64,000 bases of DNA from Sipunculus nudus (lineage: Eukaryota > Annelida > Sipuncula > Golfingiida > Sipunculidae). Below the pieces are notes generated by a model, which had not been told where the DNA came from, searched no databases, and was given only the letters and a program-made list of their open reading frames with translations. Positions 27,200-63,019 of the stretch are shown piece by piece (position 1 is the first letter of the stretch; the number at the start of each line of letters is the position of its first letter). The DNA lies in NCBI GenBank assembly GCA_026874595.1, contig CM049311.1, positions 38,460,676 to 38,524,675 of the forward strand, in the 5' to 3' direction. The position numbers and the translations under genes are program-made.

Positions 27200-28410
27200 G
27201 GCCCCCATCTTCAGCAACAATTAATATCAGTCCACACTCATAGAAAAGGTCACTCTCATAGAAAAGGTCATGACTCCAATTTCAATATACATCATCCCAT
27301 AACCCATATCTATGTATATGCATAATATGAAAGAAATCTGTCCATTAGTTTTTGACTTATAATGCTGACAGTACTGTTAGGTGGCAATGATGGGGTATTA
27401 AACGGCACGAAAACAAGTAAAAGAATAACAGGTGGCTCTATCAGTTTCCGGTACATGACAACACTATCCAAGAATTTCGGTCAAGTTGATTTTTGGACCA
27501 ATCAATGCATCCCTTATTGAGATATTAATGATTTTGTGTGATTTTCACCATTAATGGCAATATTCAAGGTCAAGGCCACTCTCATATGAAAGGTCATGAC
27601 CCAAATTTAAATAAACATCATCCCATAACCCATATCTATGTATATGCATAATATGAAAGAAATCTGCCCAATTTTTTTTACTTATAATGCTCACAGTACT
27701 GTTAAGTGGCAATGATGGGGGTATTAAACGGCACGAAAGCAAGCTAAAGTATAACAGGTGGTGCCACCTGTTTCCAGTACATGACATTACTATCCAAGAT
27801 CTTCGGTCAAGTTGATTTTTGGACCAATCCGTTATTGAGATTTTAATGATTTTGTGTGATTTTCACCATATATGGCAATATTCAAGGTCAAGGCCACTCT
27901 CATAGGAAAGGTCATGAACCCAATTTAAAATAAACATTATCCCATAACCCATATCTATGTATATATGCATAATATAAAAGAAATCCGTCCATTAGTTTTT
28001 GACTTATAATGCTCACAGTACTGTCATGTAGCAATTTTGGGGGTATTAAACGGCACACAAACAAGTAAAGAATAATAGGTGGCACCACCAGTTTCTGGAA
28101 CATGACAAGCTTATCCATGATCTTCCATCAACTTGATTTTGGGATCAATCCATGCAAGATTTCTTGAGATATTTAAGAATTTGTGTTATTTTCCCCAAAA
28201 TTTGACCTATTTAAGGTCAAGGACACTCTCCTAGTCAAGGTCATGACCTCATTTTAGATAGGCGTCGTCCTCTCACCCATATTTATACATATACCAAGTT
28301 TGGTAAAGATCCGTGAAATATTTTTTGAGTTATCGTGCCAACAAGATTTATATGCCGCGGCGGGACCGGTATGAAAACATAGTATCCCCCGACTTTGTCA
28401 GGGGATACAA
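27200..28410 (+). mobile_element. Family-4 element: 318-bp satellite with terminal hairpin
   Basis: About three and a half units of about 320 bp share CAAGGTCAAGGCCACTCTCA, CCCATAACCCATATCTATGT, GGTATTAAACGGCAC, an AGGTGG-CCACC phrase and GGACCAATCC. The block ends in the hairpin GTATCCCC...GGGGATAC at 28382-28408 followed by AA. The phrase AAACATAGTATCC before the hairpin is the same as at the family-3 right ends (35585, 49935). A minus-strand relative occupies about 53690-54375. No left end was found. Confidence 0.7.
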
Positions 28411-31400
28411 TTATTCAATATATGTTAGCTCCAACACAAATTCTTTTATGGATAGCCAGATGATTTATGACTGCAAGGTCTACCTCTTGGTGTTTTAGGA
28501 CTGTTATTTTTTTAAGAAGTGCCCCTCTGTGTTGAAAGTGCCCATGTATGCACTGATGGAAAAATAGCTTAATATTAACAGCTTTGCTTTTCTTAAACAA
28601 ACTGAAAGTGACAGATTATGGACAGAAATCTGAATGCAACTGAAAGTTATTTAACCATATTAAGGAAACTGTGACTGCTTGATGAATTCAAATAATAATT
28701 CATCATATAAGGCAGAATAGAAATCACTGCATGTTGGCTTTTCCAAACACTGGAAAGATGAGTTTCATCATAAATTTACCCTGCCAAACTAGAATGACAA
28801 TTTTAATTTGTACTGTGATAAACAGAAATTATTTAATGGAATGATTAATTTGTCTCTGGGAAGTTCTGGACCCTCCCAAATCCTTTTTCACTCCTAAAAA
28901 ACAAATGAAATAAATTTAATTCTTCAAACCTACACACTGATCCCTTTCCTAATGTGAAATGATATTTACAATGCATAATGAAACTACAGTTAATAAACAT
29001 TCAACAATCAAACAGTTTTTTTCAATCCTACCTTTTTACGGTTATGTCAACTTGAACATTGGTATGAGCACTAACCTTGTCAAGGTGAACACAGATCTGC
29101 GTCACAACAATAACTACACTGACTGACCAGGGCCAGGTTTGTTGATCAGTGTATTATCAAAGCTTTGACACAATTATGTACCAATGTTGTGCACGCCTGC
29201 TAAGTTCATAAAGCAGTCATGTATCCCTGAAATAACCTATAGCTCATTCCTTTTTACATCGCTGTACCACACTGATAGGAGACAGCTTAATAAATTATAC
29301 GTACTCCTCCACACAACATCTTATGTATCAATATGACAGGCTCTAGTAAACATTAAAGGTGCATGTCATTATGTGGTACTGGTTGACTGACAAGAACGAC
29401 AGTTGTAGTTACAACTTGCCTGTCATAGGTATACAGGGTGTGAGCTTAACAATTCAAGCTCTACCGCATAATTTTAAGATTTACATTTAAAATGACACCT
29501 AAATTCTCATAGTAAAGGCCACACATAACTATGATACATGAATTCTATCAAGTTTGTATGGTTCTTTTGATTTAAAAAAAAACAGTATATTTTACACATA
29601 AATATACATGCACTGGAGACAATATATATATATATATACTTGTAACTGAAATGAGACATCAAAGTATACCTTACCTTTCTATGAACAGAAGCCAGCTAAG
29701 GGTATCAAGTAAAAGGTGACAAAAACCACCTCATAAGAGATTTATTGATTCAGCAACAAGACCTGAATTATAGTAATATCCCCTGGTGTTAGCTGACAAA
29801 ATAACTTTCTTGTTGTATAAATAAAGTCACCATAACTACATTGTCAGTAAGACTCATTAACACATGTTGTTGGGGCCTTCATAGTAATTAAGTATTTGTG
29901 CCTTGCTTCATAGCTGGCATGAGCCCACATAATTCAGCTAATCATCATAATTAATCTCTACACAATTAAGAATTAGTACTTTACAGCTGGTTCTTTAGGT
30001 CCTTTAATTTGACCACAGAATGAGATTTAGCAAGAATGAACACACCTTTCAATATGCACTTAATTCTTTCATTTCTACATTTAATTAAGATTTAAATACA
30101 GATGTGGCAATCCTATTTGCTAGTCATTATTTCCCTTGGGAGAGCTGGCTAACAAGCTACTGTATCTGGCAGGTGGCCTGAGTAACAAAACACCTGAATT
30201 TACTGAGGTCAAGGTTGGTGGCCTGCTGTGGTATCCCTCTGAGAGAGACTACTCAGGTGCCCAGAAAGAAGGGCACACTTGAAAACAAGGGTTGGCCAAG
30301 GTCGGTAGCCTGTTTGCAAATAAGAAATGTTCACGTGAGGTTAACACACATGAGAAGCAGAAAGCATAAATATCTGTTAACTGAAAGCTTCCCCTGTGAG
30401 GCTGTCCTGCTTTACACATGCTAGGTCAGGGCTGAACTATTGAAAGTACTTGCCAAGTAGGGAAGTTACATTTAGCTTTTACTTGTCCTACATGGTTTTT
30501 ACTTGCCCTACAAAATCAATGATTGCAGCCACAAACACAAAAAAGGGTTCCATATAATTATTTTACAACAATAAACATGTGTAAGTGTTTGTTTGTTTGT
30601 AGTATTTTATTTAATATCAGCACAGATTCACATTCTTGTCATTTAAGATGGAGGTATTACAATATGATTTCATTTCCCCAAGAAAGAATATTGCAACAGG
30701 TAACTGAAGATTAGTTAAGATGTGACATTTGGCCTTTGCCCAGTCAGGAAAGTAGTAGCCTACTTTTGGTTACCCTACCACAATTATCTGCCCAGGATGA
30801 GCATGAAGGTCATTCTCATTTGCGATGTGCCCTGTTTTTCTAAACATAATTTCCTATATGGAACTGGTTTCTCATGAAGTGGATAACACTATTATTAATT
30901 TCTCCAATGCCACATATTTAATACCTGAATGAAAACATGAAAGCATTAAGGCTAAATTTAGAAACAGTAGAAATCCCTTTATTCTTAAGCTAAGGGACAC
31001 TGTTCAGATAAATGGTCATTAGCATAAATGATTCTGCATGGAGGTTACTACTGTATTTACTGAAAGACCAAAATCAATGAATCTAGCCCATGGATATTAC
31101 AGGATGGCTACAATATCCTATTACATTTTTATCAATTTAATCAATACACCATGTTATATACAAAATCACTGCCCTTAAAAAATAAGCATCAATCAACTGT
31201 TATTTTACCAAATTCATGTCATGTATAGCTCCAATGATAACTCATATGATATGTTGTACAAATGTAGAAAGTAGACCAGGAAAGCTCAAAAGTGTTTAAA
31301 TACAGGTGTTTATAAAAGAATGAAATGAAAAAGTGAATAATAAATAATCAATTCTAATAAAATAATTTTATTATTTCTCTTTCTCAAACGGCAATTATTG

Positions 31401-31900
31401 TTTCTATTATACCAAAGTTCTTGAGTAACCACCTTCAGGAGCCAGAGAACAAGTCATTAAATTAAAAAAAAAAATACTGAAACGGCTTGACTTATCACAA
31501 TGGTAACAACACTCAGATCACCGTTTTCCTTCAGGAACCAAAAGATAACTTGCCTTTAAACAAAAGGCTATCAACAGGCCTTGTGATCTTATGTGACAAT
31601 CATATTGTTATGAGGGAAATAGTACTTACAATTTTTCATCATAACAGACACTGCTGAACTGAGCAGGCATGCAGCAGACGCTTAAAAAAACATATGATAA
31701 CCTTGTTTTGAAAAAGGGGGCACTAACTAGTGCAGACATAGTGGTCAAAGTCTGGTGTGAGTAAGTAGGCCACGCATGTACAACTCATTGATCCTGTTAC
31801 TTTTTATCTGATCTTTCTACTGGCGGTGACTGATATGTTTATTACCCAATATACCTGGTCTCCTTATATGGGCTGCAGCAATACGAGTATGGTGGTGTAA
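28411..31900. other. Unassigned sequence, no gene seen
   Basis: AT-rich DNA upstream of the CPT1 coding region. It contains a short TA microsatellite (about 29622-29638). I see no exon, RNA gene or recognised transposon here. A non-coding CPT1 exon could be present but cannot be recognised by eye. Confidence 0.6.
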
Positions 31901-31902
31901 GG

Positions 31903-32070
31903 TAAAAAAAAAAATAAAAGGTATGGTTCTCAAGCACCACCCATGTAAATTTTAACCCCCCCCCCCCCCCGGCATCAAATTTTTATTTTGATTTTCATCT
32001 TTCAAGATAAAATAATACAATTTTGATCAGATTTCCTTTGTTTTGTAGTGCTTTAACCTGTTTAGCATGA
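31903..32070 (+). repeat. Interspersed repeat, copy 1 of an inverted pair
   Basis: About 160 bp matching the reverse complement of 47806-47968 at high identity (AAAAGGTATGGTTCTCAAGC, TTTTAACCCCC, TTTTATTTTGATTTTCATCT). It includes a C-run at about 31958-31972 that is only five C long in the partner. Confidence 0.85.
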
Positions 32071-33537: not shown

Positions 33538-34166
33538 ACAGGACAAACTCCGATCCAGTAGAATCGTCGATCCTACTAGGACAAAGTCCTTTGTACAAGG
33601 AGAAACTCCGATCAGACTTTCTACTAGTAGGATCGGCGATTCTACTAGGACAAACTCCGATCATAGCCTCTACTAGGACAAACTCCGATCAACCAGAGAC
33701 CACAACATAATTATACTTTCTACTTGTAGAATCGGTGATTCTACTAGAACAAACTCTGATCATAGCCTCTACTAGAACAAACTCGTATCAACCAGAGACC
33801 ACAACATAATTAGACTTTCTACTAGTAGAAGTGGTGATTCTACTAGGACAAACTTTGATTGTAGTCTCTACTGGGACAAACTCTGATCGTAGTCTCTACT
33901 AGGACAAACTCCAATTGCATGTAGTCTCTACAAGGAGAAACTTACCATAATTTACCTTATTTCTGAAACCTGAAATTAAAAATGAATAAAACACAGTAAT
34001 ATTTTAACCAAATGTTTTATTTATGTATTTGAAAAAAAAAAAGGGAAAAATAAATACAAGCACATATGATAAAACACAATATCCCACGATTATATATACA
34101 AGTCACAGATATACATCTAAATGTTTCATTCAGACATATTCATACAATTTTATTTGATAAAAAAAA

Positions 34167-35620
34167 ACTAGAATACGGGTAGTCGACAAGCGACTACGTG
34201 TATCTGCCTAAATCAGAGTGGAACGGGTGAAGTGAGGCATGGATTGAGTAGCAAGGGGAAATAGAGTGAAGTGTTGCATATTAGCATGGATGTCTGCAGC
34301 CAAATGGTGTATGTAGGTTGCACCACCTACCACAAAATCCAGAAAGCCATCCAAGTTGTATACATATGCAAAATTTGAGGCAGATAAGTCAAACCACTAT
34401 ATGTTTATGAGTGATTTTAGCCCGTGGCAGACAAACTGATGGACGCTGTGCAAAAATGGTTGAAGGTGGCGCCACCAGTTTTGCGTATGATAAAGAGTTA
34501 TGTGAGAACTATACACATGCAAAACTTTGGCCCAATCGGTCAAACGGTTCCCAAGATATGAGCTTGGATGTCTGCTGCATAAACTAGAATGCAGGTGGCG
34601 CCACCTGTCATAAAATCAGAAAAGCTATCCAGGATGTATACGCATGCCGAATTTCAGGTGAATTAGTCAAATCACTGCAGAGATATGAGTGATTTTATCC
34701 CATGGCAGACAAACAGATGGGAGCTGTGCAAAAATGGCTGCAGGTGGCACCACCAGTTTTGCGTATGATAAAGAGCTATGTGAGATCTATACACATGCAA
34801 AATTTTGGCCCAATCGGTCGAACGGTTCCCGAATTATGAGCTTGGATGTCTGCAGCGTAAACGTAAATGTAGGTGGCTCCACCTGTCATAAAATCAGAAA
34901 AGCTATCCAGGATGTATACGCATGCCGAATTTCAGGTGAATTAGTCAAATCACTGCAGAGATATGAGTGATTTTATCCCATGGCAGACAAACAGACGGGA
35001 GCTGTGCAAAAATGGCTGCAGGTGGCGCCACCAGTTTTGCGTATGATAAAGAGCTATGTGAGATCTATACACATGCAAAATTTTGGCCCAATCGGTCGAA
35101 CGGTTCCCGAATTATGAGCTTGGATGTCTGCAGCGTAAACGTGAATGTAGGTGGCGCCACCTGTCATCAAATCAGAAAAGCTATACAGGATGTATACGCA
35201 TGCTGAATTTCAGGTGAATTACTCAAATCACTGCAGAGATATGAGTGATTTTAACCCAAGGCAGACGAACAGCTGGACACTGCAAACATGGTTGCAGGTG
35301 GCGCCACCATTTTTTGTGTATGTTATAAAGTTATCCAAGGGCTACATTTGTGCAAAAAAATTTTCCTGATCCGTCAAACGGTTCCCGAGATATGTGGGTT
35401 TATATGTGGAAACAGACGCACAAACGGACGCAGAGCGCAGAGGAAAGGTCAGAGGTCAAAACAAAATCGGGGCGCAGCAGTTCACATGTGACCCAAACAT
35501 TATCCCGGGTTTCGAAAAAATTCCGCCCAGCGGTTATGGAGGAGTTCTCCGGACACCTACGTGGCGGCGGCGTGCAGCTGAAAACATAGTATCCGCAAAA
35601 CTCTGTTTTGGCGGATACAA
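34167..35620 (+). mobile_element. Family-3 Helentron-like element inside the foldback
   Basis: The left end ACTAGAATACGGGTAGTCG contains a hairpin (GTAGTCG-ACAAG-CGACTAC) followed by TGTATCTGCC. The right end is a hairpin whose outer part is GGCGGATACAA, the inverse of TGTATCCGCC. The core is a 278-bp dimeric satellite (34465 to about 35310). A second copy lies at 48642-49973. Protein-like frames in the satellite repeat exactly every 278 bp and are artefacts. Confidence 0.8.
34465..35310 (+). repeat. 278-bp dimeric satellite with GGTGGCGCCACC
   Basis: Half-units of 128-130 and 147-150 bp alternate. Each starts with the palindrome GGTGGCGCCACC or a one-base variant (34465, 34594, 34743, 34871, 35021, 35150, 35297). 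The two halves share ATAAA-AGCTAT and TATAC-CATGC phrases but otherwise differ, making a two-monomer higher-order unit. The phrase CAATCGGTCGAACGGTTCCC marks one half, ATATGAGTGATTTTA the other. Confidence 0.92.
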
Positions 35621-36653
35621 TTACAAAGATAAGCACAAGCACATGTAAGCACAAACTGTTTACCTACTTGTATATATGTAAAATTCCTGAATATTGATCT
35701 AAAATATTTCATTAAGTACAAACTGAAGTCCTTAGATCTCAAAACAATGAAGGCCTAGCTGACCATACTGACAATTGATAGGTTGATGCCTAGGTGTCCC
35801 ATACACCTTGAATTCCAGATACTCTATTATTTATGTGTATAAATATCACTATCATTAGTTTTAATTTTCTAACTTTATACACAAACTTACTTTATACCAG
35901 TACATACAGATGACTGATCTTTATTTCCCCTGTACACTATAAGGAGCAATCATATACAATACAGCCTAATAACAAGAATTCTAGGAGTATAGTACATAAA
36001 ACAATGAATAAATATAATGGTTTTACAAAAAAAAACCTAACATGTCAACCATAACCATATACCAGTGTTTAACCCCACATTAAAAACCAAACAAACAACC
36101 GTTGTCCTGTATATTGTATAAAACAATCATGATATACTCTAGTCTTTTAGAAAGTCTGTGTTTTTAATGTGTTTAATTTATTCATAATCTCAGGTTTCAG
36201 AAATTAGACCATTATGGTAAGTTTGTCCTAGTACAGATTATGATCGGAGTTTGTCCTAGTAGAAGCTCTGATCAAACTAGTACATTTATATAGGATTGGG
36301 AGTTTGTCCTAGTAGAGACCACGATCTGAGTTTGTCCTAGTAGAATTGCCGATTCTACTAGTAGAAAGTCTAATTATGTTGTGGTCTCTGGTTGATCGTA
36401 GTTTGTCCTAGTAGAGGCTATGATGGGAGTTTGTCCCAGTAGAATTGCCGATTCTACTAGTAGAAAGTATAATTATGTTGTGGCCTCTGGTTGATCGGAG
36501 TTTGTCCTAGTAGAGGCTATGATTCGAGTTTGTCATAGTAGAATTGCCGATCCTACTAGTAGAATGTCTGATCGGAGTTTCTCCTTGTAGAAAGTCCGAT
36601 CGGACTTTGTCCTAGTAGGATCGACGATTCTACTGGATCAGAGTTTGTCCTGT

Positions 36654-36656
<3 letters not shown>

Positions 36657-37865: not shown

Positions 37866-38797
37866 GTGACCAAGGGGTCATGACACTCAGAGGACTACGA
37901 AGACATTCACAAAAGGAATTTTATCAACTGAAAGCCCAATTTTGTAGATGGTATCCCCATTCAACTGAAGCATAGCTAGGTAGTGGGTAACAGAGACCTA
38001 ATTTCAGGTTTCCAAGGTGATTTTTCATGGAACTCCCTGAATGTCAAGTTAGAAGATCCTAGGAGCAATTCCAGGACTATCTTTGAAGATCTCTTAAATA
38101 AAAATTTATATAAAATGCGTAAAAATTGGGAAAAATTCACATGGCGTCACCAGTCTGCAGGAACTGATGAAACATTCCATGTTCAATGTGCATGCAAAAA
38201 ATCATGGTGATGAATGCATTAGATGTTCAGAAACTGGAGGTTTTTTTAAATAAAATTTTTAATCATACTGAGGGCTACTAACAAGCCCTATAGCTCAAAG
38301 GATAACAGAGACCTAATTTCAGGTTTCCAAGGAGATTTTTCATGGACCTTCCTTCTTGTTAAATTAGAAGATTCTAGGTTGAATGGTTACGATTTGCACA
38401 CTGTTAACGGACAACTTCATCACTGAAGGTCTCAAAAAGAGAGAAAATGTGGAAAAATTAAGAAAAACACAGGTGAAGCAAACCAGCCTGCAGAACTGAT
38501 GAAACTCTCCATGATCAACATGCGTGCAAATAATCATGATGACCAATGCATTTGTTGTTCAGATACTGGAGCTTTTGTGTCAAATTTTTAATTATCCTAG
38601 GGGGTACATCTGCCCCATAGCTTGAAGGATATGGGTAACAGAGACCTAATTTAAGGTTACCACAAAGATTTTTCATGGACCTCACTGCATATCAAGTAAG
38701 AAGATTCCAGGTCCAGCGGTTATGAGTTGTGCCTGGTTAACCGAAGGACAGACAAAGAGTGATTGCTATAGGTCAGATGACTTTCAGTCATCTAGAA
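37866..38797 (+). mobile_element. Decayed family-1 Helentron-like element
   Basis: The left end is GGTGACCAAGGGGTCATGAC (decayed palindrome). The interior has two to three units with the phrase GGTAACAGAGACCTAATTT-AGGTT. The right end CAGATGACTTTCAGTCATCT is decayed. It corresponds to the flanking parts of the element at 48474-52317. Confidence 0.75.
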
Positions 38798-48470: not shown

Positions 48471-48641
48471 CCCATGGGTCATGACGCTCAGCTGACTGGG
48501 AAGAGATTCACAAAAAGAAATTTTATCATCAGAATGGTAGATACCCATTCAACTGAAGCATCAAACAGATTAACCAACAGGCCAAGATTTAGTCTGTATT
48601 TATATATCTGAAAAATAGAGAAAAAATGTGTAAACTTTAAA

Positions 48642-49973
48642 AACTAGAATACGGGTAGCCGACAAGTGACTACGTGTATCTGCCAAAATCAGAGTGAAGT
48701 GAGGCACGGATTGAGTGGCAAGGGGAAACAGAGTGAGGTATGTTGCATATTAGCATGGATGTCTGCAGCCTAAATGTGTATGTAGGTTGTGCAACCTACC
48801 ACAAATCCAGAAAGCTGTCCAAGTTGTATACATATGCAAAATTTTAGGCAGAAAAGTCAAACCACTACATGGATATGAGTGATTTTAGCCCACGGCAGAC
48901 AAACAGACAGTTGCTATGCAAAAATGGTTGCAGTTTTGTGTATGATAAAGACCTATGTGAGATCTAAACACAAGCACAATTTTGGCCCAATCGGTCAAAT
49001 GGTTCCTGAGATATTAGCTTGGATGTGTGCAGCGTTAACTAGAATGTAGATGGTGCCACCTGTCATAAAATCAAGAAAGCTATCCAGGATGTATAAACCT
49101 GCAAAATTTTAGGCAGTTATGTCAAACCACTACAGAGAAATGAGTGATTTTAGGCCATGGCAGACCAACAGACAGACGCTGTGCAAAATGTGCAAAAATG
49201 GTTGCAGGTGGCCCCTCCAGTTTTGTGTATGATAAAGACCTATGTGAGATCTATACACATGCAAAATTTTGGCCCAATCGTTCAAACGGTTCCCGAGATA
49301 TGAGCTTGGATGTCTGCAGCATAAACTAGAATAAAGGTGGCGCCACCTGTCATAAAATCAAGAAAGCTATCCAGGATGTATAAAACTGCAAAATTTTAGG
49401 CAGATATGTCAAACCACTGCCAAGATGTGAGTGACTTTATTGCACGGCAGACAAACAGACAGACGCTGTGCAAAAATGGTTGCAGGTGGTGCCACCAGTT
49501 TTGTGTATGATAAAGAGCTATGTTAGATCTATACACATGCAAAATTTTGGCCCGATCGGTCAAACGGTTCCCGAGATATGAGCTTGGATGTCATCAGCGT
49601 GAACGTGAATGTAGGTGGTGCCACCTGTCATAAAATCAAGAAAGCTATCCAGGATGTATAAAACTGCAAAATTTTAGGCAGATATGTCAAACCACTGCCG
49701 AGATATGAGTGACATTATTGCAAGGCAGACAGACAGACGCTGTGCAAAAATGGTTGCAGGTGGCGCTACCAGTTTAGCGTATGTTATAGAGCTATCCAAG
49801 GGCTACCTTAGTATAAATTTTATTTCCTGATCAGTCAAACGGTTCCCGAGATATGAGCTTGGAAAGCTGATAAAATCAAGTCCCAGAGGAGCTCTCTGGA
49901 AACGAACGCGGCAACGGCAGAGGAACCCGGTCAAAAACATAGTATCCACAAAACTTCGTTTTGGCAGGTACAA
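48642..49973 (+). mobile_element. Family-3 Helentron-like element nested in copy E
   Basis: The left end AAACTAGAATACGGGTAGCC and the hairpin region GTAGCCGACAAGTGACTAC correspond to 34167. The right end has AAACATAGTATCCACAAAAC and GGCAGGTACAA. The core has about three 280-bp dimeric units. The uninterrupted target (AAAAATGCGTAAAAAATACA) is seen in copy A at about 823-842. There is no target duplication apart from A bases. Confidence 0.82.
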
Positions 49974-49974
49974 A

Positions 49975-52240
49975 AATACAGGTGGCTCCACCAGTCTGCA
50001 GAAACTAATAAAAACACTTACAAACATCAATATCCATGCAAAGAATCATGGTGATCTCCCCATTAGTTGTTCAGATACTTCAGCTTTTGTATCAAATTTT
50101 CCATTATTCTGAGGGATACTTCGGAGTCCTATAGCTTGAAGGATATGGGTAACAGAGACCTAATTTTAAGTTTCCACAGGCACTTTTTATGGGCCATCTT
50201 GCATGACAAGAATAAAGATTCTAGGTCCAGTTGTTGCGATTTGTACCCTGTTGACAGATAACCACATCTTTAAAGGTATCAAAAAAAAGAGAAAAAAAAT
50301 CATAAAAATTTGAAAAAAATAGAGGTGGCGCAGCCAGTCTGCAGAAACTGATGGAACAGGTCATGATCAATATGTATGCCGAAAATCATGACCATCAGTG
50401 TTGTAGTTATTGAGATACTGCAGTTTTTGTATCAAATTTTCCATTATTCCGGGGGGTAATTTGGAGCCATACAGCTTAAAGAATATGGGTAACAGAGACC
50501 TAATTTCAGGTTTCCATGGAGACTTTTCATGGGTCTCCCTGTGTGTCAAGAATGAAGATTCTAGGTCTAGTTTTAATGATTTGTGCCCTGTTAACAGATG
50601 TTCATAACTTTAAAGGTCTCAAAAATAGAGAAAAAATTGTAAAAAAACCCGAACAAATACAGGTGGTGCCACCAGTCTGCAGAAACTGATGAAACACTCC
50701 ATGATCAATATCCATGAAAACAATTATGGTGATCTCTGCATTAGTTGTTCAGATACTTCAACTTTTGTATCAAATTTTCCATTATTCTGAGCTGTACTTT
50801 GGAGTGCCATAGCTCAAAGGATATGGGTAACAGAGACCTAATTTCAGGTGTCCATGGAGACTTATCATGGGGCTCCCTGTGTTTTAACAATGAAGATTCT
50901 AGGTCCAGTCCTTACGATTTGTACCCTGTTGACAGATAACTACATCCTGAAAGGTCTCGAAAATAGAGAAAAAAAATTGTGAAAATTTGAAAAAATACAG
51001 GTGGCACCACCAGTCTGCAGGTACCTCTTGATCAATATGTATGCCAAAAATCATGACCATCAGTGTTGTAGTTATTGAGATGTTGCAGTTTGTTTTTATC
51101 AAATTTTCCATTATTCTGGGGGGTTATTGGGAGCCCCCCATAGCTCAAAGGATATGGGTAACAGAGATCTTATTTCAGGTTTCCATGCAGACTTTTTATG
51201 GACCTCTCAGTGTGTCAAGAATGAAGATTCTAGGTCCAGTCTTTATGATTTGTGCTCTGTTAACAGAAAGTTCACATTTTTAAATTTGTAAAAAATCGAA
51301 AAATTCAGGTGGCGCCACCAGTCTGCAGGAAGTGATGGAACATCTCATGATCAATACGTATGCCAAAAATCATGACCATCAGTCAAGTAGTTAATGAGAT
51401 ATTGAAGTTTTTGTATGAATTTTTTTACTTTTCTGGGGGGTACTTTGGGGCCCCATAGCTCGAAGGATATGGGTAACAGTGATCTAATTTATGGTTTCCA
51501 CGGAGACTTTTAATAGGTTTCTCAGTGTGTCGAGACTGAAGATTCTAGGTCCAGCGTTTACGATTTGTGCCACGTTAACAGATGACAGCATCTTTAAACG
51601 TCTCAAAAATAGAGGAAAAAATTGTAAAAAAAACGAAAAATACAGGTGGCGCCACCAGTCTGCAGGAAGTGATGGAACATCTCATGATCAATATGTATGC
51701 CAAAAATCATGACCATCAGTGTTGTAGTTATTGAGATATTGAAGTTTTTGTATGAAATTTTTTACTATTCTGGGGGGTACTTTGGGGCCCCATAGCTTGA
51801 AGGATATGGGTAACAGAGACCTAATTTCTGGTTTCCAAGGAGATTTTTCATGGACCTCTCAGTGTATCAAGAATTAAGATTCTAGATCTAGGCTTTACGA
51901 TTTGTGCCTTGTTAACAGATGTTCACTTTTTTAAAGGTCTCAAAAATAGAGAAAAAAATTTGTAAAAAATCGAAAAATACAGGTGGCGCCACCAGTCTGC
52001 AGGAAGTGATGGAACATCTCATGATCAATATGTATGCCAAAAATCATGACCATCAGTCAAGTAGTTAATGAGATATTGAAGTTTTTGTATGAAATTTTTG
52101 ACTTCTCTGGGGGGTACTTTGGGGCCCCATAGCTCGAAGGATATGGGTAACAGAGACCTAATTTCTGGTTTCCAAGGAGATTTTTCATGGACCTCTCAGA
52201 ATCCCAAGTTACAAGGTTCTAGGTTCAGCGGTTACGATTT
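49975..52240 (+). repeat. 337-bp satellite core of copy E
   Basis: About seven units share AGGTGGCGCCACCAGTCTGC, GATCAATATGTATGCC, ATTGAGATATTGAAG, GGATATGGGTAACAGAGACC and ATTCTAGGTCCAG. GGTGGCGCCACC is exact at 51308, 51645 and 51982, giving a spacing of exactly 337 twice. One unit occurs in copy A (810-1300). Confidence 0.93.
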
Positions 52241-52434
52241 GTGCCTGGTTAACGGACGGACGACGGACCAAGAGTGATCGCTATAGCTCAGATGACTTTC
52301 AGTCAGCTGAGCTAAAAATGCCATCTGGGATGACTGCAGTGTATACCTGTTGCTTGAGGAGTGTAATTTGCTGTGGTTGCATTTTTATTTGTAAGGGTTT
52401 TAATTTTGCGATATTTGCAAATGTTAATTAATTG

Positions 52435-53250
52435 GTGTCAGTCTTAATGAGCAGGGTCTGAATGGGCGTGCTGCTTTTGAGCATGGTTTTAATGCGCGCG
52501 GTCTGGATGGGCGCGTGACCTAATTAGGTCTTGATGGGCGTGGGCCGTCTGGCTGTGTTGCCCCATGTGAATGGAGAGGACGCTGGTATCTTTGATATTC
52601 CTTCATTTATATCAATAAACAATTCTGAAAATAACAAAGGAGTATGACTGGCCGTGTACGACCATGTAAATAGAGATTAGCGTCATTTTTTTTTTACAAA
52701 TCGTCAGTGATATCATTTAACAATCATGGAAAACAACAAAGCAGTACCGGTCGCCGTGCCTGTCCATGTGAATTTAGAAAAGCGTCGGTACTTTTAAAAA
52801 ACTTTTAGTCATATCTTTAACAAATTGTGAAAATAACAAAGCAGCAGTTTTTTAGGTGCTACGTACTTGACACTGGATACGATCGACCATTGACTTACGG
52901 CCAACCGCTTGGCATGACACGCATGATATATATATGAAAATAATAATTTCATACGCATGATAAGTAATATCACTGACGGTTCGTAAAAAAATACTGACGC
53001 TAATCTCTATTTACATGGTCGTACACGGCCAGTCATAATTCTCCTTTGTTATTTTCAGAATTGTTTATTGATATAAGTGAAGGAATATCAAAGATACCAG
53101 CGTTCCTCTCCGTTCACATAGTGCAACACGGCCAGATGGCCCACGCCCATCAAGACCTAATTAGGTCACGCGCCCATCCAGACCGCGCGCATTAGAACCA
53201 TGCTCAAAAGCAGCACGCCCATTCAGACCCCGCTCATTAAGACCGTAATC
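52435..53250. mobile_element. 816-bp foldback element with about 290-bp arms
   Basis: The left arm contains GTCTTAATGAGCAGGGTCTG, ATGGGCGTGCTGC, GACCTAATTAGGTC and AGAGATTAGCGTC. The right arm is the reverse complement at high identity. The 9-mer AATTAATTG flanks it at 52426-52434 and 53251-53259, a probable 8-9-bp target duplication. Two to three about 110-bp units with AACAAAG-AGTA and GGCCGTG phrases lie in the left half and loop. The arms are GC-rich against an AT-rich surround. Confidence 0.85.
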
Positions 53251-53689
53251 AATTAATTGCGAATATGAAACCCTGGGGAATAAGATGCCTGATAAACTAA
53301 GAAGAAGAAGAAGGAATAATGCATCTGCTCAAACAGTTTAGTTATCACACAACCTAATCAGCAACCTGTGCATGGTGTCAAACTGGTCCATGCATACAAG
53401 CATTAATTATAGTAAAAACACAGGGTCATATGGACTGTGACACAAGTCATAAGTTAATGACTAAACCAGAACTGAGTGAGGTATTGTAGAATTTATTCTA
53501 AATCAGTTCTAAATCTAAATCAGTTCACATACTACTGTATTTTATAGGTTCAGGTGCAATCACAAAAATGAAACCCTTGCGAAACGTTCAAAATGAAGAA
53601 ATCACAAAATTTCACCCGTGCAAATATATAGCCAACCACAGTATATTAAGGTGTGTAGAATGATCAACAGTCAAGAGATGAATTGATTT

Positions 53690-54375
53690 GATGTGATTGT
53701 AAACACAACATAAGCACATAGCTTCATTTTTGAGGAAAATCACACTAATCCTAAATATCTCAAGAAACCTTGCATGGATTGAACCAAAAATCAAGTTGAC
53801 CAAAGATCATGGACAGTGTTGTCATGTTCCTGAAACTGGTGGCGCCACCTATATTCTTTTCTTGTTTTAGGTATCATTGCAACTTGACAGCACTGTAAAA
53901 ATTATAGGTTAAATACTAATGGACAGATTTCTTTCATATTATGCATATACATAGATATGGGATATGGAATGAGGTATTTCTAAAATGTTGTCATGACCTT
54001 TACCATGAGAGGGGCCTTGACCTTGAATATTTCCATATTTGGTGAAAATCACATAAAATCTTTAATATCTCATTAAGGGATGCATAGATTGGTCCCAAAA
54101 GCAAATTGACTGAAGATCTAGGATAGCTTTGTCTGAGATGGGAGACAGGTGATGCCACCTTTTTTCCTTTTCTTGTTTTCGCGTCTTTTAATACTCCTAT
54201 CATTGCCACTTGACAATACTGTTAGCAGTATAAGTAAAAATCTAAAAGACAGATTCCTTTCATATTATGCATATACATAGGGATGGGTTATGGGATGAGG
54301 TATATTTAAACTGACCTTTCCTATGAGAGTGGCCTTGACCTTGAATATTTCCATATTTTGTGAAAAATATTGTTT
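53690..54375 (-). repeat. Family-4 satellite, inverted copy
   Basis: The reverse complement matches the 318-bp units at 27200-28380 (CATATTATGCATATACATAG, GGCCTTGACCTTGAATATT, GACAG-ACTGT). It carries an exact GGTGGCGCCACC at 53838. About two units; no hairpin end seen. Confidence 0.8.
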
Positions 54376-55132
54376 CTCAAGTCAATAGATGTATCTATCT
54401 GAAAATCAAAATGGAAGATGTCAGATGATAAGATGTTGAAAGAGACAAGTGACCTTGGTTTTGAAGGTGACCCCTAAAAGGAACCATGTTTAGCTTGCCA
54501 AGTGTCAGTTTATGCTTCTGAAGATTAGGGCCTATTTTTGAAGGGGGGGGGGGGGATTAATTGTCTGGGGATACTATGGCATCTGAGATGCCAAGAAATG
54601 TCTAGTTGTAAAATTGGAATTGCTATGCTAGCAAGTATATATATTATATATGAAGAAATGAAGAAGAAAGGTGATATCCTTTTTGCCAGGAGCTGGTGTT
54701 GTTCTTATTACAAACTTCTGGGATTGAAGTGAAGCCTGGTGGCTTCTTAGTTGGTGTAAGAAACTGACAGGGTTTCAGTTAATGCCGGCTTGTTACATCA
54801 ACTGAGAAAAACCACCAAGCTAGTCCAAATAAAGGTTTTCCCTTTCAACTATCCTTAAGCACATGGTATGTTGAACAACAGGTTTATAAACCACTCCATA
54901 GAAATGCTTCTTGCCATAAGATTATATTTTCTAAAACTATAGTAAGAAATAGTGATGTAGTGATGAAATCGGCATTCTTTGTAAGATGTCATATGATTAG
55001 AACAAGAACATTTCCATTTCAAAATATTATAGATTGAATCATTTTTTAGAATGCACTTTTTAAATAAGTGCACCTTTTCTTATTCATGAACTTGTTCAGT
55101 ACAAAATCTTTTCCACTCTTATGTAAAACAGG
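54376..55132. other. Unassigned sequence upstream of the 55162 exon
   Basis: Contains a G-run (about 54542-54554). No element or exon recognised. Confidence 0.5.
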
Positions 55133-55254
55133 TTGTGAGTGAACAGATCTGAAGCCACAAGATGGCGCCAGTTGACTGGGATGAGCTGATGGGGCTGGAT
55201 GTGGCCAACCTTGAGGGGGACACAGCAGAAGACATGTACCCAGTCCTCTCAGAG
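55133..55254 (+). CDS. First coding exon of an unidentified gene (coding part 55162-55254)
   Basis: An acceptor-like TATGTAAAACAG ends at 55132. It is followed by 29 untranslated bases with an in-frame TGA, then ATG at 55162. The 31 codons read MAPVDWDELMGLDVANLEGD then TAEDMYPVLSE, ending in phase 0 before a donor GTTAGT. The peptide is acidic and codon choice is balanced and GC-rich compared with the surrounding AT-rich DNA, as for a real exon. The start sits in CAAGATGGCGCC, which differs from the TISU consensus at one position. I do not recognise the family, and found no further exon to 64000. Confidence 0.6.
55158..55169 (+). promoter_or_regulatory. TISU/YY1-like element over the start codon
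   Basis: CAAGATGGCGCC overlaps the ATG. TISU (consensus SAASATGGCGGC) directs initiation on very short 5' leaders and binds YY1 at the DNA level. 11 of 12 positions match. Confidence 0.45.
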
Positions 55255-57261
55255 GTTAGTGCCTTGCAGCTCTGTCAAGCCAAATAACTGTATTAATTAA
55301 ATTGTATTAAAATTACTGCAGCTTGCTCACACTGCACACTAACCCTTCCACCAGAGTTTTTTTCTACTCAAACAAACCTCTTCCAGTGAAGTACTGTAAG
55401 AAATGGCTGGGACTACTTGTCTCAACTGTCAAAATCAAAATTTGTTACATTTCAGGGAAATACCTTCTGTTTACTTTTCACATAGGCATTCTTACAAGTT
55501 ACTAAATATTGCATATTTCATGAAGTCCTTACCACAAAGACACACATATATATATAATTTCTTCTGAAAGCAATTCTTTTTCAACTTACTTTAACAGACT
55601 ACATTACTCTCTAAGTCTTTACTTCATTCATATCTTTGCAATCTGTGAATGTAGAAACACTGGTGCATTGTAGGTTTTAGGTTCGAAAGCCCACATCCTA
55701 ACCAGCAGAGTTGTATGTTTGTGAGACTGCTCATTGTGACTGAAGAGTGTTATCCATTATCATCCTTATGACCATCATCAGCATTAAGGAAATAATCAGC
55801 GAGGCTCTTTTATAACATGCAGTGTTTAAGTAAAAAGGCTTTTAGAAAATGGCTAATATTATAATAAATGGCTTATATATGTTACAGTCAATGTGTAAAA
55901 TAAGTCAATTTGTAAATTGCCTGAAATTTTATAAAAGGCACTTAATTAAATGACTGAAATTTTATTTGACACATTGACTGAATCGATATGGAATAGTCTG
56001 TTGTTTCACATATCTCATTATTGTGAAACAAACAATGTCATTTTGTATAACCAATTACTTTTAAGTAAACATTATGCCTGTTTCATCCTTCTAGGCTATT
56101 CATGAAGATTACTGATCACGTAATAAAACTAAAATACACCAACTGGTGAGGGGTAATCAGAATCATATAGTTTAAATATGATAACTAAATGAAATATGAA
56201 TGCCATATTTTACAAATCATATGGCTACATTTTTGCTTATGAAAGAATGAGAATCAAGTCAAATGGAAGCTTTTGCTTCAATAAAACATCAAAAAGCATT
56301 AAAATGTGCAGTAACATTTGAAATGAACAATGTTGATTGTAGAATGTTGAAGGATAACCACCGTTACATGTTTTGTTATATCAAATACATGATTAAGATA
56401 TCATTAAGTCAGTGACAAAGGGTAGGGTCTAATCACATTTATACCATCTATATTTGTTAATGTACTTTTAATGAGGTTGCCATTCACATTCTTTGATTGG
56501 AGCCAACCTTTGTGGGAGCTGGTAGTGTAGGGTAGTCAACTATAGTCAATAAGAAAGTACAGAAGCGCAATTTAATTTGGAGATAAATAAAAGAATTTAA
56601 TTTTGCTATAGAAATAATAATTAACAAAATTGTGTCACAGTTTCCTTAAATATTAAAAGTGTTTTATCTCTCAGAAATAGCTAATTACTAACTTAAACCA
56701 ATGACTGATTTCATGGCATGATTCACTCTTTTCCGTGACATTGTTCATGGGACCCAGTTATTTAAGCACAAATTTAAATGATCCATGCAGATTTTGAGAA
56801 TTTAAACAAGAACATGAAGTTTTATTGTGAAATTACAAGCAGCCGATCCAAGCGTTCATGATGGGGGGAGGGGAGAGTTTCTCAGGAGATATTTGCTGCC
56901 CTTAGTATTTTTAGGTCAAACATTTTAATATGTTGTTGGTATCTGAAGCGAGAATATTCCTAGTTATTTCACACCAATTTTGCTTCACCCTCATTGACGG
57001 AGGGGGACACATCTTCCACACACCCTCCCAAAGTGCAAAAGGAAATTTAGTCCATGAGATTCATATTATTTACATTTCACATGATTGCATAATTATTTCT
57101 GCAAGAACTTTAATTAAGCCAGATGGACACTTTTGATCAAATAAATTATTAAATTGTGCAATATTATGATGTAACATGTATTAATGTTTTGTAAGAGTAA
57201 GGTATAAAAAATAAATGAAATGTCATTTTAACCATTTTAACTTTATAACAATAGTATTTAA
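55255..57261. other. Intron of the 55162 gene, no further exon seen
   Basis: AT-rich. Holds a 96-bp palindromic MITE (55885-55980); otherwise nothing recognisable. Confidence 0.5.
55885..55980. mobile_element. 96-bp palindromic MITE
   Basis: It starts CAGTCAATGTGTAAAATAAG and ends TTATTTGACACATTGACTG. The inner arms also pair (CTGAAATTTTAT and GACTGAAATTTTATT phrases). TA-rich flanks. Confidence 0.65.
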
Positions 57262-58261
57262 TTTTTAGCTCAGCTGACTAAAAGTCATCTGAGCTATAGT
57301 ACTGGTCCATTGTCCGTTGTCCGTCCGTCTGTCCGTCCGTCTGCCTGTCCATCCGTAGATTTGGCAAGTTTTGAAACCGTAAGACCTAGGAATCTAAAAT
57401 TTGGCATAATGTTAGATGTCCCCAAGATCTCCTACCAAGCAGAAAACTGGGTCTTTGCAACTTCCTTCCTTTGAGAAATTAAGGAAAAACCTCAATTTTT
57501 TTATTAAACACCTATTTTCACACTTTAGGACTGCCTAATATCAAAACCACTCATCTGTTTTTCCTAATATTTACCATAAATATTCCTCTATATAGTTCCC
57601 CAATGTACATGCCAGAAATTAGGTCTGTATTATATAATTTAAAAACGTTATGGGCCCAAACATAATGCATTTTGTAAAAAATCAGGAAAGATGTTTGATC
57701 ACTTAACACAAAACATGTTAAAGCTATGGACTTTTTTTCCAGTAATGTAACTTTAATTAATAAAAATTAAATTGTATACCCAAAATTAGATAAAAATCTT
57801 TTGAATATTTTAAAATATTAACAAAAATAAAAAATTGGCACCTTAAATTTTGCCCAAGTTTGACCATGGCACATTTTTTTCCTGTAAGTCCTGTGGATTT
57901 AATTTTCACATTTTGTTTATGTTAGCATTTTGTCTGATAACACCAAAAATTTGAAACCAGTTGATCAAAAACTAGATTTTATTCAAGTTTTCAAGCACCA
58001 TGTAACATATTGTTTACATTAAGCTAGTGTTATGCACTTTGCAAGAGCTCAGCTCCCCAGCTTCAGCTCTCAGTTCCTAAAATTTGGCATACAATTAGAT
58101 GTCTCCAAAATCCCCTACCATGCCAAGAATTTGGTCACTAGGACTAAATACCTTCGAGATATTAATGAAAAACTTTATTTTTCCATTAAAAACCCATTGT
58201 TACACTTCAAGACTGCCTAATATCAAAACCACTGGTCTGACTTTAATCATATATAATATAT

Positions 58262-58725
58262 ATGTCGAGGGAAGAATGAGAATCTGGGAAGATCCGGAAT
58301 CCTCCCGGGAAAAATTAGAATTCTGATTTTTCCCAGGAAAAATGAGAATCCAGAGAAGGTATGAAGAGATTCCCATTCTTCCCGGGAAGAATGAGAATTC
58401 TCATTCTTCCTGGGACAAATGAGAATTCCAGTCTCTCCCGGGAAAATTGAGAATTCTCATTTTTCCCGGGAGAGACTGGAATCCAGTTTTGAAATTCAAA
58501 CCTGGGAAAAATGAGAATTCTTATTCTTCCCGGGAAGAATGGAAATTATTGATGCCAACTTAACTCTTTTAATTTTTTTCATACTTATTTCTCGTTTCAG
58601 AAAGAAACTTTGATCATCTTTTTTTCATATAAATTCTGAATTTTTCAAGTGTTAAAAAAGAAATAAATAGTACACTCACATAAATTAGAAATATGTGAAT
58701 AAAATATGAAGCTGACAAAAAAGTG

Positions 58726-58772
<47 letters not shown>

Positions 58773-59146
58773 GTTTAAAGGGCTTAGGAATAACTACACT
58801 CGTTGACACAAAGTATTATGATGCTGTTTGTGTGTTTGTTGATCTGACCACTTTGATCAATAAACATCAATCAGTATTGATTGTAATGCAGTGCGATCAA
58901 AGGTTGTAGTCAAAATGTGTTTTCTGCTTTCTTTCATGACAAAAAAAATGTAACTGTTCTTTTAGCAATGGTCAGTTAATAACATTAAAGTTTTGTTATG
59001 ATACTGTAGTAAAATATGCAAACTTAACCCACCTTAACTATTAAAAGGATATCATTTAACAAATTGGAGCTGGCTGGGAAAAATAAGAATTCTGGGTTTT
59101 CCCGGGAAAAATCAGAATTCTCATTCTTCCCTGGAAAAATGAGAAT
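58262..59146. mobile_element. Palindromic TTCCCGGGAA block around a TA microsatellite
   Basis: 58266-58555 and 59070-59140 contain many head-to-head copies of GAATTCTCATTCTTCCCGGG and its complement. Between them is AT-rich sequence with (TA)n at 58727-58768. The two clusters are inverted overall, and the block interrupts the satellite at 58262, so it is probably a foldback insertion. Confidence 0.65.
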
Positions 59147-60189
59147 CAAATGATAGTATTGTTGCTTTTATTAATGTTTTTATGAGACCATGTCAGACCT
59201 TGGCTCTCTCCAGCCCCTCTGGAGTCACCTGTATGTTGACCTTGTTGAACTTTCAGCAAATTATGCATGCTTGAGGTGAGGCATTCACTCGGGCAGCCAG
59301 GCAGCTTATGGCCAGCCACAGTTGATCCAGGTGTCCAACCCAACTCATCTAGTAGTTTTAACCAGCAACATAACAATAAACAATAAATTAATAAATTTTT
59401 ATTGGATTTTAATAACAAATTAAAAGAAAATAGAAAAGGAATTTGTTAGTTTATAATAACAGGAAATTAACTTGCAGTTCCTGATGATATAAGAATCTTG
59501 TATCGATGGATAGAATGTCACATATTCCAAATTACACAATGCAGTATTTTTCAGTTCAATTTTAATGATATAAAAGTAAATCATATTATTCATTAATAAT
59601 CATTAGGGATCATATGAAGGAAATTAATGATAGACAAAGATGCAGTTGATAATATTAATCTAGATTCCTACTGTGTCTAGTGTGTACATTGATGTGAAAT
59701 TAGCCCAAAATTAATATATTACATTTATTTTTTTTTTAGCCAACCTGTGAGCTTATGCGATGGTGCGGCGTCGTCCGTCCTGTGTCGTACGTTGTGCGTC
59801 GTCTGTACGTTGACCATAGCTGTCTCAAAAATGGCAGGAGCTAGCATCACCAAATTTTTTGCAAATATTCAGTCATCCAAAAAACTTTATCGGATTTTGT
59901 TTATTTTTTTTCTAACTGCATTTTCTTAGATTTTATAGGGAAAAAGCTAAAAAAACTTCAAAAATCTTCTTCTCTGAAACTGTCCAGCCAAATTGTCCAA
60001 TATTTCACAGAAATGATCCCTGAAACAATCTTTTTCAAGTTTGTTCGAATGGTTCCAGTTGGGAGATTTTTGGCTGAGTTACAGGAGGTTGAACTTTGTT
60101 AACTGTGCAAAAAAGCATATTAAAATTTAAATCTCAGAAATGGCTCGAGCTATCATCACCAAATTTTATGCCAGTGTTGGTCACATGAG

Positions 60190-60780
60190 TCATATCTGAA
60201 ATTGAGGTATTGGTGGCACCACCTGCATCGGCCTTTTTTGTACGGGGTCATCAGTGCCCGTATCACACTGACAGCTACAAATAACTTCTTCTCTGAAACG
60301 AAATGGCCAAATTGTTTAATATTGCACAGAAATGATCCTAGGGTAGTGCTTTCTGAAGTTTGTTCAAATGGTCTCAGTTCAGTGACTTTTGGCTAAGTTA
60401 TGGGAAGCTGAATTTAGTCATATGCCATAACAGCCCATTTTAGCTAAGTGGCTACAAAAATCTTTTTCTCAAAAACCACTGGGCCAAATTCTTAAATCTC
60501 ACACATTAATTATCCTTAGATGTTGATAATTCAAGTTTGTTCAAGTTTGTCTCAGTTCAGTGACTTTTGGCTGAGTTATGGGGAGCTGAATTTAGTCATA
60601 TGCCATAACAGCCAATTTTAGCTAAGTGGCTACAAAAATCTTCTTCTCAACAACCACTGGGCCAAATTCTTAAATCTCACACGTTAATTACCCTGAGATG
60701 TTGATAATTCAAATTTGTTCAACTGGTTTTGATTCAATGATTTTTGGCTGAGTTATGGGAAGCTGAACTTTGCCATTTTG
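60190..60780 (-). repeat. About 178-bp satellite of family 2
   Basis: Units share CCATAACAGCC-ATTTTAGCTA, CCACTGGGCCAAATTCTTAA, ATGTTGATAATTCAA and TTTTGGCTGAGTTATGGG. Copies of the same phrase start at about 60424 and 60602. Confidence 0.8.
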
Positions 60781-61544
60781 TTGTATTTTCCCATATGAGT
60801 TATAAACCTACAAAACATTTTTCGACTGATGATGATACTGAGGCCAGTTTGTTAAATATTTTGCAAGAATAATTCCCTGAATCATTCTTATAATAATTGT
60901 CTTTTATGGTTCCAAAAAATGAATTTGGCTGAATTATAAAGATTGAATTGAGTCATTTTACCAAATATGCTAGCTGTGTGAAGCAGATACATTTAGCCTA
61001 GCACCAGTTTATCAGCATCCATTACATCATGCCTCTAGACATTTAGATTTCAGGTTATCTATGGAAAATATTGACAAGAATGTTTTTAAAAGCTTTTAAA
61101 AAATGTAGATTTATGATATTACCTATCATCTGTACACTAACTCATAATTTCTCAGGAATAGCAGGAGCTACCATCCCCAAATGTTATGCAATTATCTGTC
61201 ACATATCAAATGTTGATGGATTCATCTTATTTTTGCTTTCTGCATTTACTTAGATTTTACAAGGAAAAAGCTGAAAAAAACTTGTAAAAGTCTTCTTCTT
61301 GTAAACAGTCCAGCCAAATTGTCCAAATTTTACAGGAATAATCCCAGAGGCGAGCCCTCTCAAGTTTGTTCCAAGGGTTTGTGTTGGATAAATTTTAGCA
61401 GAGTTACATAACAGGCCAAGATTGTGTACGTTTCTTGAATAGGTTGGGAAACTGCCAACTGTTTCAGATTTGGCAACAGATCAAGAGTTCATTCAGTGAA
61501 GCCAAATATAGGTCAACAGTTCAGTCAGTGCAACCAAGCACAAG

Positions 61545-61632
61545 GCATGTGATCACCTCATGGGCAGCATGTGATCATCTCATGGGTAGCATGTGATCTC
61601 CTCATGAGTATCATGTGATAACCTCATGGGTG
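61545..61632. repeat. Four-copy 22-bp tandem repeat
   Basis: Four units of GCATGTGATCACCTCATGGG plus two bases, with few changes. Around it (61440-61880) an irregular about 33-bp motif CAAGAGTTCACTCAGTGCAG recurs. Confidence 0.85.
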
Positions 61633-63019
61633 TCATGCCCCTCAGGGCTGCATATGGAGCCATTCTGTGAGCTTATGCAATTGTGTGGCTACTATTTCAG
61701 ATTTGGCAATAGGCAAAAGGTCAGCCTGGATTTATTTATAGCTTTGGCAGACTGCCAACTGTTTCAGATTATGCAACAGGTCAAGAGTACACTCAGTGCA
61801 GCCAGGTACAGGTAAAAAATTCACTTAGTCTAGCCAGGTGCAGGTCAAGAGTTCACTCAGTGCAGTAGCCTGAGCCAGTAATTTGTCACAGTACACTCGG
61901 GGCAACTGCCTTTCTCACCTAAGCCTGGTCAGCCCCGTGCATCAGACTCAAGGTAAGTTTGATGTATTGGCCTGATATTCTGACCTGTCTATGTGTTTTT
62001 ATGGCTTTCTCGTTCACAAGACAGGTGTCGCCATCTACAATGACTTTTGCAAAGTGTATTTGCCTGCTTAATTCTACAGAAGAATTTGATATATCAGCCT
62101 GAAATTGGGCATATATGTACATGTCAAATAGCTTTGTTGTATACAAGACTGGTGGTGCCACCTACAATAATTTTTGTGTTGTGTGCACCCATGCCAGAAT
62201 TTCAGCAGTGATGTTTGTGTATTGTCTTGTTCAAAATGTTTAGTACTTGCATTGTTCATATATATGAAAAGTAGTGGTTCAACACTGAAGCGTTATACCT
62301 GGTGTATATCCATATGCACAGGTTCGCATTAGGCCTGTAGGCCTTGTTTAATATAAATAAAAGCCATAAATCCAGGTACTTATGATCATTATTTAAATGT
62401 GTGAATTTTGTATATTCAAGATTCTCAACATCATTGTTTGGTGAAAACTATATAAATACCAGACATGGTGCAAATACTTTGCAATTGTATTTAAATAAGA
62501 ATATGAATATGTACTCCATTGTAAAATTTCTTGCATAAAGAATGGGAATTCAGGTAAAAATGAAAGTATATGAATACCAGTGCAAATACTTTCAAAATGT
62601 ATTCATGAATGCATTCATGAATATATTCTTTAATATTATTTTAATAATCATTTCAGTTATATTTCATTTTTAAAAATTATATGATTCTCTTATTATTTTT
62701 AATAAAAATTATATTTGGGACAATGTTTGTAATTTTCTTTAATAAATAGTTAAACTCTTATATTATATGTTCTGCTTATAAGTTATATGGCCAAGTCAAA
62801 ATCTGTGTGACAATAGTACTCCATTTGTTAATAAAATAAATGAAATCAATCCTCTTCCCTGTCTCCAAAGGTACTATCAAAATCATACATAAGCTAACCA
62901 ACAACAACTCATAATACAGCTTGTATTTATTACCACACAAAACCCGCATGTGCCTCATTTCTAAATCATATTTTTTTATCATATATAACAACTGAGCGCC
63001 GTGACCCATAGGTCCCTTG

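Follow-up and report, generated by a model that had tools for sequence, protein, structure and literature searches.

The 64,000-nucleotide stretch of Sipunculus nudus DNA analysed here (contig CM049311.1; C6:38460676-38524675), referred to below as the window, contains several short tandem arrays whose monomers carry a common 12-bp palindrome, GGTGGCGCCACC (the box). Within these monomers the box is better preserved than the monomer average, and we tentatively suggest that it is a protein-binding site spread by transposable elements of the HINE type. Ten exact copies are present in the window (at 34465, 34594, 35021, 35150, 35297, 49336, 51308, 51645, 51982, and 53838), all of which had been correctly located in a sequence-only reading of this stretch, and its view that chance occurrence is negligible is borne out by the 29 copies within 2 mismatches, compared with 0.47 expected (100 dinucleotide shuffles, the largest count being 3). 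The one-base variants named in that reading exist near the places given for them (27757, 49485, 49614, 50662, 51000, and 62151); its list, however, was incomplete, as six further one-base variants (28078, 34743, 34872, 49759, 49981, and 60212) and seven two-base variants are also found in the window. A C>T or G>A change at the central CpG accounts for 9 of the 12 one-base variants, and the decay of the box is concentrated at this dinucleotide.

Within the genome searched (1,426,538,692 bases in 153 contigs), the exact box occurs 111,729 times, compared with 14 occurrences of a reversed-letter control. A separate sample of 200 kb, drawn from 20 places on contigs C1-C10, holds 13 exact boxes (65 per Mb vs. 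78 per Mb genome-wide), 10 of which coincide with matches to the monomer profile described below (E<1e-3). The box lies within 3 mismatches at 34 places in the window, of which 32 were kept as monomers (27 on the plus strand and five on the minus strand) and two (43245 and 55161) were excluded, being by eye without monomer context. The palindrome masks the orientation of its monomers, and the boxes at 53838, 54148, 60212, 62024, and 62151 belong to monomers of the minus strand. The box-bearing loci of the window are as follows.

842..853, plus strand: box of an isolated 337-type monomer, with 2 mismatches
27140..28410, minus strand: HINE-like element of the 318-bp family; boxes 27431 (3 mismatches), 27757, and 28078; inverted repeat GTATCCCC..GGGGATAC at 28382-28408
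34168..35625, minus strand: HINE-like element around the first 278-bp array; two stems computed, borders and subterminal repeats placed by eye
34279..35400, plus strand: first 278-bp tandem array (129+149 bp dimer); exact boxes 34465, 34594, 35021, 35150, and 35297, variants 34316, 34743, and 34872
38140..38572, plus strand: a pair of decayed 337-type monomers whose boxes have 3 and 4 mismatches
48640..49975, minus strand: second 278-type HINE-like element; boxes 48785 (3 mismatches), 49049, 49207, 49336 (exact), 49485, 49614, and 49759; ends placed by eye
49972..52253, plus strand: 337-bp tandem array; boxes 49981, 50324, 50662, 51000, 51308, 51645, and 51982 (the last three exact)
52252..52320, minus strand: end of a 337-type HINE-like element, a short ACGG-type run followed by the inverted repeat TAGCTCAG..CTGAGCTA (52284-52314)
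53700..54600, plus strand: second 318-type HINE-like element with minus-strand monomers; boxes 53838 (exact) and 54148; palindrome TGGCATCTGAGATGCCA at 54577-54593; borders placed by eye
60122..60223, minus strand: one monomer of another family, with a single box (60212)
61941..62162, minus strand: two monomers 127 bp apart; boxes 62024 and 62151

Judged by their layout, the carriers of these arrays are HINE-type elements, i.e. short, non-coding rolling-circle transposons associated with Helentrons, as set out in the structural descriptions of PMC4067079 and PMC7492417. A perfect stem was found in 5 of the 12 end stretches tested (viz. the inverted repeats at 35589, 28382, and 52284, and the palindromes at 34179 and 54577). 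The 5' subterminal inverted repeat and adjacent inverted repeat of HINEs are represented by perfect stems of 8 in three of the five elements, and the 3'-end palindrome is found in two elements and was not found at 48600-48740 or 27080-27230; of the 337 element, only the end at 52252..52320 was located. The element at 34168..35625 has a hairpin, GTAGTCGACAAGCGACTAC (34179-34197), at one end and the inverted repeat GTATCCGC..GCGGATAC (35589-35618) at the other, together with subterminal inverted repeats, TATCTGCC/GGCGGATA, that agree by eye with one mismatch. No perfect stem of 7 is present at either end of the second 278-type element, whose inverted repeat is imperfect by eye, and no stem was found at the left ends of the 318-type elements at 27140..28410 (where the border was placed by eye) and 53700..54600. 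Beside the central repeats, where HINEs have a microsatellite, the 337 element has a short ACGG-type run (at about 52252-52269), and no such run is visible in the 278 and 318 elements. The central arrays are short, with 2-8 boxes per array, and the elements contain no stop-to-stop frame of 120 amino acids; no known RNA family was detected in the window at the gathering threshold.

Some further features of the region were noted. A GGTTG-type box is found in the leading monomer of each of three distinct 278 arrays (48785, 34316, and L011:7456), both mirror positions being changed in 48785. By eye, the first 278-type HINE is nested within a large element (33540-36655) that has long inverted ends of AGGACAAACTCYGATC-type repeats and (TA)n on both sides. 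Three open frames between 3420 and 5787 (at 3420, 4724, and 5086) resemble by eye a broken reverse transcriptase of a non-LTR retrotransposon.

Conservation of the box and probable kinship of its monomers

A profile was made from the sequence downstream of the box and trained on the 32 box-chosen monomers of the window. Besides these, it matches three other places in the window, viz. 38493 (a box with 4 mismatches), 28283 (a truncated end), and 48935, a monomer of the second 278-type array in which the box has been lost, as though 13 bp between two AG repeats had been deleted. The 200-kb sample provides the fair test: immediately upstream of all 21 matches to this box-less profile there is a box with at most 3 mismatches (none in 10 cases, one in five, two in three, and three in three), compared with 29 of 5000 random 35-base stretches.

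Departures from the family consensus were counted within four families of at least four members, using the monomers of the window and the sample. In non-CpG columns the box departs from the consensus in 26/480 cases (5.4%) and the rest of the monomer in 863/5834 (14.8%), and none of 111 other ten-column intervals is as low; with all columns included, the values are 49/576 and 943/6130, and none of 107 other intervals is as low. The next-lowest intervals, near the GAGATAT end, show 7.8% departures. The Fisher p value of 5e-11 for the conservation of the box is overstated, because copies within one array are not independent; when a single monomer per element is used, the box departs in 2.8% of cases vs. 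13.5% for the rest (143 of 152 matches, from families with at least five elements only and in a partly box-selected set). The comparison of the box with the remainder of its monomer, which the sequence-only reading had recommended as a check, thus shows the box to be kept better than the monomer average within families.

All 145 scored monomers have an A immediately before the box (seven of the 152 matches have no box within 4 mismatches), and the base to its right is A in 88, T in 55, and C in 2, the mirror T being absent in 90 of the 145. The flanking A is near-invariant. Genome-wide, 1,182 of the 111,729 exact boxes are without the flanking A on both sides; 40 of these A-less sites (of 50 listed) were considered, 36 of which match the monomer profile (19 + 17); by eye L083 belongs to the 318 type, and the other three are unassigned. 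Within the box, departures number 20 in the left half and 31 in the right half, of 725 each. The kept unit is an asymmetric 13-mer, A-GGTGGCGCCACC; about 40 bp downstream of it the monomers have an ATGC(C)AAAATTT segment in common, though loosely. Separately, an exact box minus the flanking A occurs in two copies of another repeat (L092 and L093) that fall outside the monomer profile, and a third leftover site is L099.

The 32 oriented monomers share a spaced pattern, with spacing counted by eye, that consists of the box, a GATC that ends about 33 bases further along, ATGC(C)AAAATTT at a distance of about 40-51 bases, and then GAGATAT. Their kinship was examined by means of profiles from single families from which the box was left out, with reversed targets serving as control. 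The 278A profile matches all 15 of the 278B monomers (best E 2.1e-6) and the 278B profile all 14 listed 278A monomers (best E 1.4e-8), a further 278A monomer (L011_7485) being counted as unlabelled. The 318 profile matches unlabelled monomers at E 2.6e-5 and four 278A monomers at best 8.7e-3, and the 337 profile matches three 278A monomers at best E 6.5e-3 and one 278B monomer at 0.43; the 337 and 318 profiles gave no mutual match at E<1. In the control, three profiles had no match under E 1 and the 318 profile had one at 0.076. The common descent of both halves of the 278 unit is clear from these profile matches. For the 337 and 318 families, common descent with the others is likely but weak, and rests also on the fixed spacing and the common box. 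The cores appear to go back to a single monomer from which they have diverged, and are carried inside HINE-type elements. Across families, identity among the 32 window monomers is 0.838 in the box vs. 0.410, the former value being inflated because these monomers were picked by the box.

These results modify several statements of the sequence-only reading. Its description of the families as otherwise unrelated was too strong, as box-less profiles link 278A with 278B, 318 with 278A, and 337 with 278A; to the eye the remaining sequences indeed do not obviously align, but a spaced pattern and weak profile matches are common to them. Being dimeric, with halves of 129 and 149 bp that have one box each, the 278-bp unit carries two boxes, spaced 129 and 149 bp, and not the one box per monomer that had been supposed. 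The alternative named in that reading, a single recent monomer with uniform divergence, is right in that common descent is likely, but the monomer is old and its divergence is not uniform. The box is a sequence handle that ties together repeat families whose overall similarity would suggest no relationship.

Outside this genome, four viral contigs carry the spaced pattern, all of them in one same unrelated stretch, and none carries a second pattern that was searched for. No relatives were found in the prokaryote genome contigs searched, and GGTGGCGCCACC appears in the full text of openly licensed PMC papers only in one unrelated paper on a bacterial chitinase.

A candidate protein-binding site and its alternatives

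The explanation that we favor, at a probability of roughly 0.45, is that HINEs have spread GGTGGCGCCACC as a site to which a protein binds; the most specific version of this proposal, with CTCF as the binder, is a lead only. The box would be one constrained segment of tandem-repeat monomers that belong to an old group and make up the central arrays of HINE-type elements; a sequence-specific DNA-binding protein would recognize it, for which reason it would be kept, and elements whose repeats retained the site would have been amplified more. CTCF, a zinc-finger protein of the host, is the most specific candidate for the binder, since the consensus published for Drosophila CTCF is AGGTGGCG (as given in one passage of PMC5462476); another host factor would be about as likely. 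In the window AGGTGGCG has 15 matches vs. 0.24 expected, all of them inside boxes. A CTCF gene and motif have been reported from an annelid (in the portion of PMC7854359 concerned), and for squid both CTCF and a CCCTC-like motif at domain borders are mentioned (PMC9023564, in part). Were a protein to bind it, the box would constitute a very abundant, transposon-spread protein site (~78 per Mb), and it would offer a direct route to ask whether HINEs that carry satellites shape chromatin.

A number of observations weigh against the proposal of a protein-binding site. The longer CTCF motif is CCASYAGRKGGCRS, which at the boxes has 2-3 mismatches or no match at all, and its best match in the window (55155-55168, CCACAAGATGGCGC, one mismatch) lies outside the boxes and the recognised HINE monomers. 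The two halves of the box are preserved to about the same degree, whereas a CTCF half-site does not need the right one to be kept. The support from the profile is limited in the window, where 32 of its 35 matches (E<1e-3) are the training monomers, and both the scoring of the 145 monomers and the test with one monomer per element include loci that were fetched for holding an exact box. In the sample alone (18 monomers in the families counted), the box departs in 8/180 cases vs. 312/2121, yet 8 of 112 other intervals are equally low, and those with a listed position all fall near the GAGATAT end; a second kept segment near GAGATAT, about 75-95 bases downstream, there matches the conservation of the box, which is therefore one of two kept segments and not the sole one. 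Lastly, a box kept through some amplification step would give the same picture.

The alternative that ranks next, which we regard as unlikely though worthy of attention, is that the box is a cis-element of the transposition machinery. According to this explanation, the Rep/helicase/endonuclease of a Helentron, or a partner of it, would recognize the box during rolling-circle copying or tandem amplification, and copies without the box would not be multiplied. The boxes, where they could be assigned, lie almost always in HINE-type monomers and are retained across families, and conserved motifs and palindromes in repeats of this kind have been proposed to promote repeat propagation (in the discussion of such motifs in PMC5139131). 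However, the structures that define Helentrons are, in the description given in PMC4067079, subterminal repeats and a 3' palindrome rather than central repeats, the conserved motifs of BIV160/Cg170 had no statistical link to junctions in the analysis reported in part of PMC5139131, and the box-less monomer at 48935 lies inside an array.

Somewhat less probable again is inheritance alone, in which the box would be one of several stretches of an old monomer that chance has left well preserved, and would have no present role. Other segments are also common to the families, and within families the preservation of the second kept segment is close to that of the box; against this, the non-CpG rate of departure in the box is about one third of the average within families, and the gap persists with one monomer per element (2.8% vs. 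13.5%, as above).

That the palindrome itself matters, either as a single-stranded hairpin or as a dyad-symmetric site for a homodimer, appears improbable. The box is a perfect 12-bp dyad with about equally kept halves, the box at 34594 folds well as single-stranded DNA (z -3.05; one of four tested), and the 48785 monomer has a compensated change at mirror positions. Yet such a compensated change of the outer pair is seen in only 1 of the 145 monomers, single-strand folding of the other three boxes tested is no better than that of shuffles, and the left A is without its mirror T in the 90 monomers noted above. The CENP-B box, with which the sequence-only reading had compared GGTGGCGCCACC, has the core TTCGNNNNANNCGGG, which is absent from the boxes and has one match in the window at 1 mismatch (24959, outside the boxes; 1.93 expected), leaving that comparison without sequence support. 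Both the hairpin and the CENP-B readings are disfavoured.

Strand of neighbouring copies

Box monomers of different families tend to share the strand of their neighbours, with sharp flips between strands (C1:0.12-0.87 Mb, C1:0.95-17 Mb, and the window). In the window, the monomers from 842 to 52253 are on the plus strand and those from 53838 to 62162 on the minus strand, and long inverted arms, foldback-like by eye, lie at the flip (52440-53265). In C1:0.12-0.87 Mb the minus strand has no scored copy: all 20 singly fetched boxes from C1:0.12-0.76 Mb have plus orientation (19 by profile and one by similarity), and in 20 further pieces from C1:0.20-0.87 Mb the same is true of 89 of 92 boxes (at most 1 mismatch), the remaining three being unscored. 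These two sets overlap in some boxes, and of the 100 places listed 734296 and nine from 917026 onward were left out.

Elsewhere the strands of the oriented 337 pattern are mixed (211 forward and 183 reverse). Among its first 100 listed sites, pairs from distinct arrays agree in strand in 8/8 cases at distances below 200 kb, 5/9 at 200-500 kb, and 6/17 at 0.5-1 Mb. The agreement below 200 kb is 13/17 (p 0.027) after the addition of A-less sites and 21/28 (p 0.01) with a second A-less set; the value for pairs below 100 kb (10/16, p 0.21) counts against strand coherence. On C1, with all lists combined, the initial 0.95 Mb excluded, and a single site retained in every 50 kb, 22 strand runs were observed vs. 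34.9 expected (p 0.0009), and pairs closer than 150 kb in this thinned set agree in 25/40 cases (p 0.08).

The left variant of the box, AGATGGCGCCACCA, has a genome count of 2164+2199. A runs test on its sites alone gave p 0.025 with 50-kb thinning and 0.16-0.19 with 100-kb thinning, the latter speaking against coherence. Six copies of AGATGGCGCCACCA lie on one strand at intervals of about 10.2-10.4 kb (C1:3704381-3756282), which suggests tandem segmental duplication, and the strand coherence is in part due to duplication of this kind. Replication polarity, gene strand, or duplication could be behind the coherence; the base skew of 10-kb loci and of parts of the window showed no clear tie to strand. 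A far-reaching version of the protein-site proposal, which we consider a long shot, is that rolling-circle transposons have seeded more than 100,000 oriented architectural sites of the CTCF type (A-GGTGGCGCCACC), strand-coherent over domains of about 100 kb-1 Mb, with the polarity of insertion recording the direction of replication or of chromatin loops.

Comparison with known systems

Satellites with a CENP-B box resemble the arrays described here in having a short conserved site in each unit, and differ in the sequence of that site and in forming centromeric blocks rather than dispersed short arrays. CTCF sites have been spread by transposable elements in the case of the rodent B2 SINEs. The present families are similar in that a AGGTGGCG-type core is found in very many copies of a repeat family; unlike those sites, only the 8-base core agrees here and the longer motif does not, the likeness being a match of sequence only. 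DINE-1 elements and Helentrons share the architecture, including central repeats, whereas the account of them in the parts of PMC4067079 that concern structure describes no protein-binding box in the center.

Two further parallels come from bivalves. Cg_HINE of Crassostrea gigas has subterminal inverted repeats, an inverted repeat, a microsatellite, a terminal palindrome, and a short central array, and some of its repeat clusters share two conserved segments, the rest being dissimilar (PMC7492417, in the sections on these elements). Its monomers, in contrast, are mostly 140-180 bp long, and those sections name no GGTGGCGCCACC box. The existence of HINEs with satellite-like repeats, and of repeat families with short common conserved motifs, is known already (as covered in portions of PMC7492417 and PMC5139131). 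The bivalve satellites BIV160/Cg170 likewise constitute a large, diverged family with two well-conserved motifs and a link to pearl/HINE-like elements, as described in part of PMC5139131, and the two kept segments of the Sipunculus monomers recall these two motifs.

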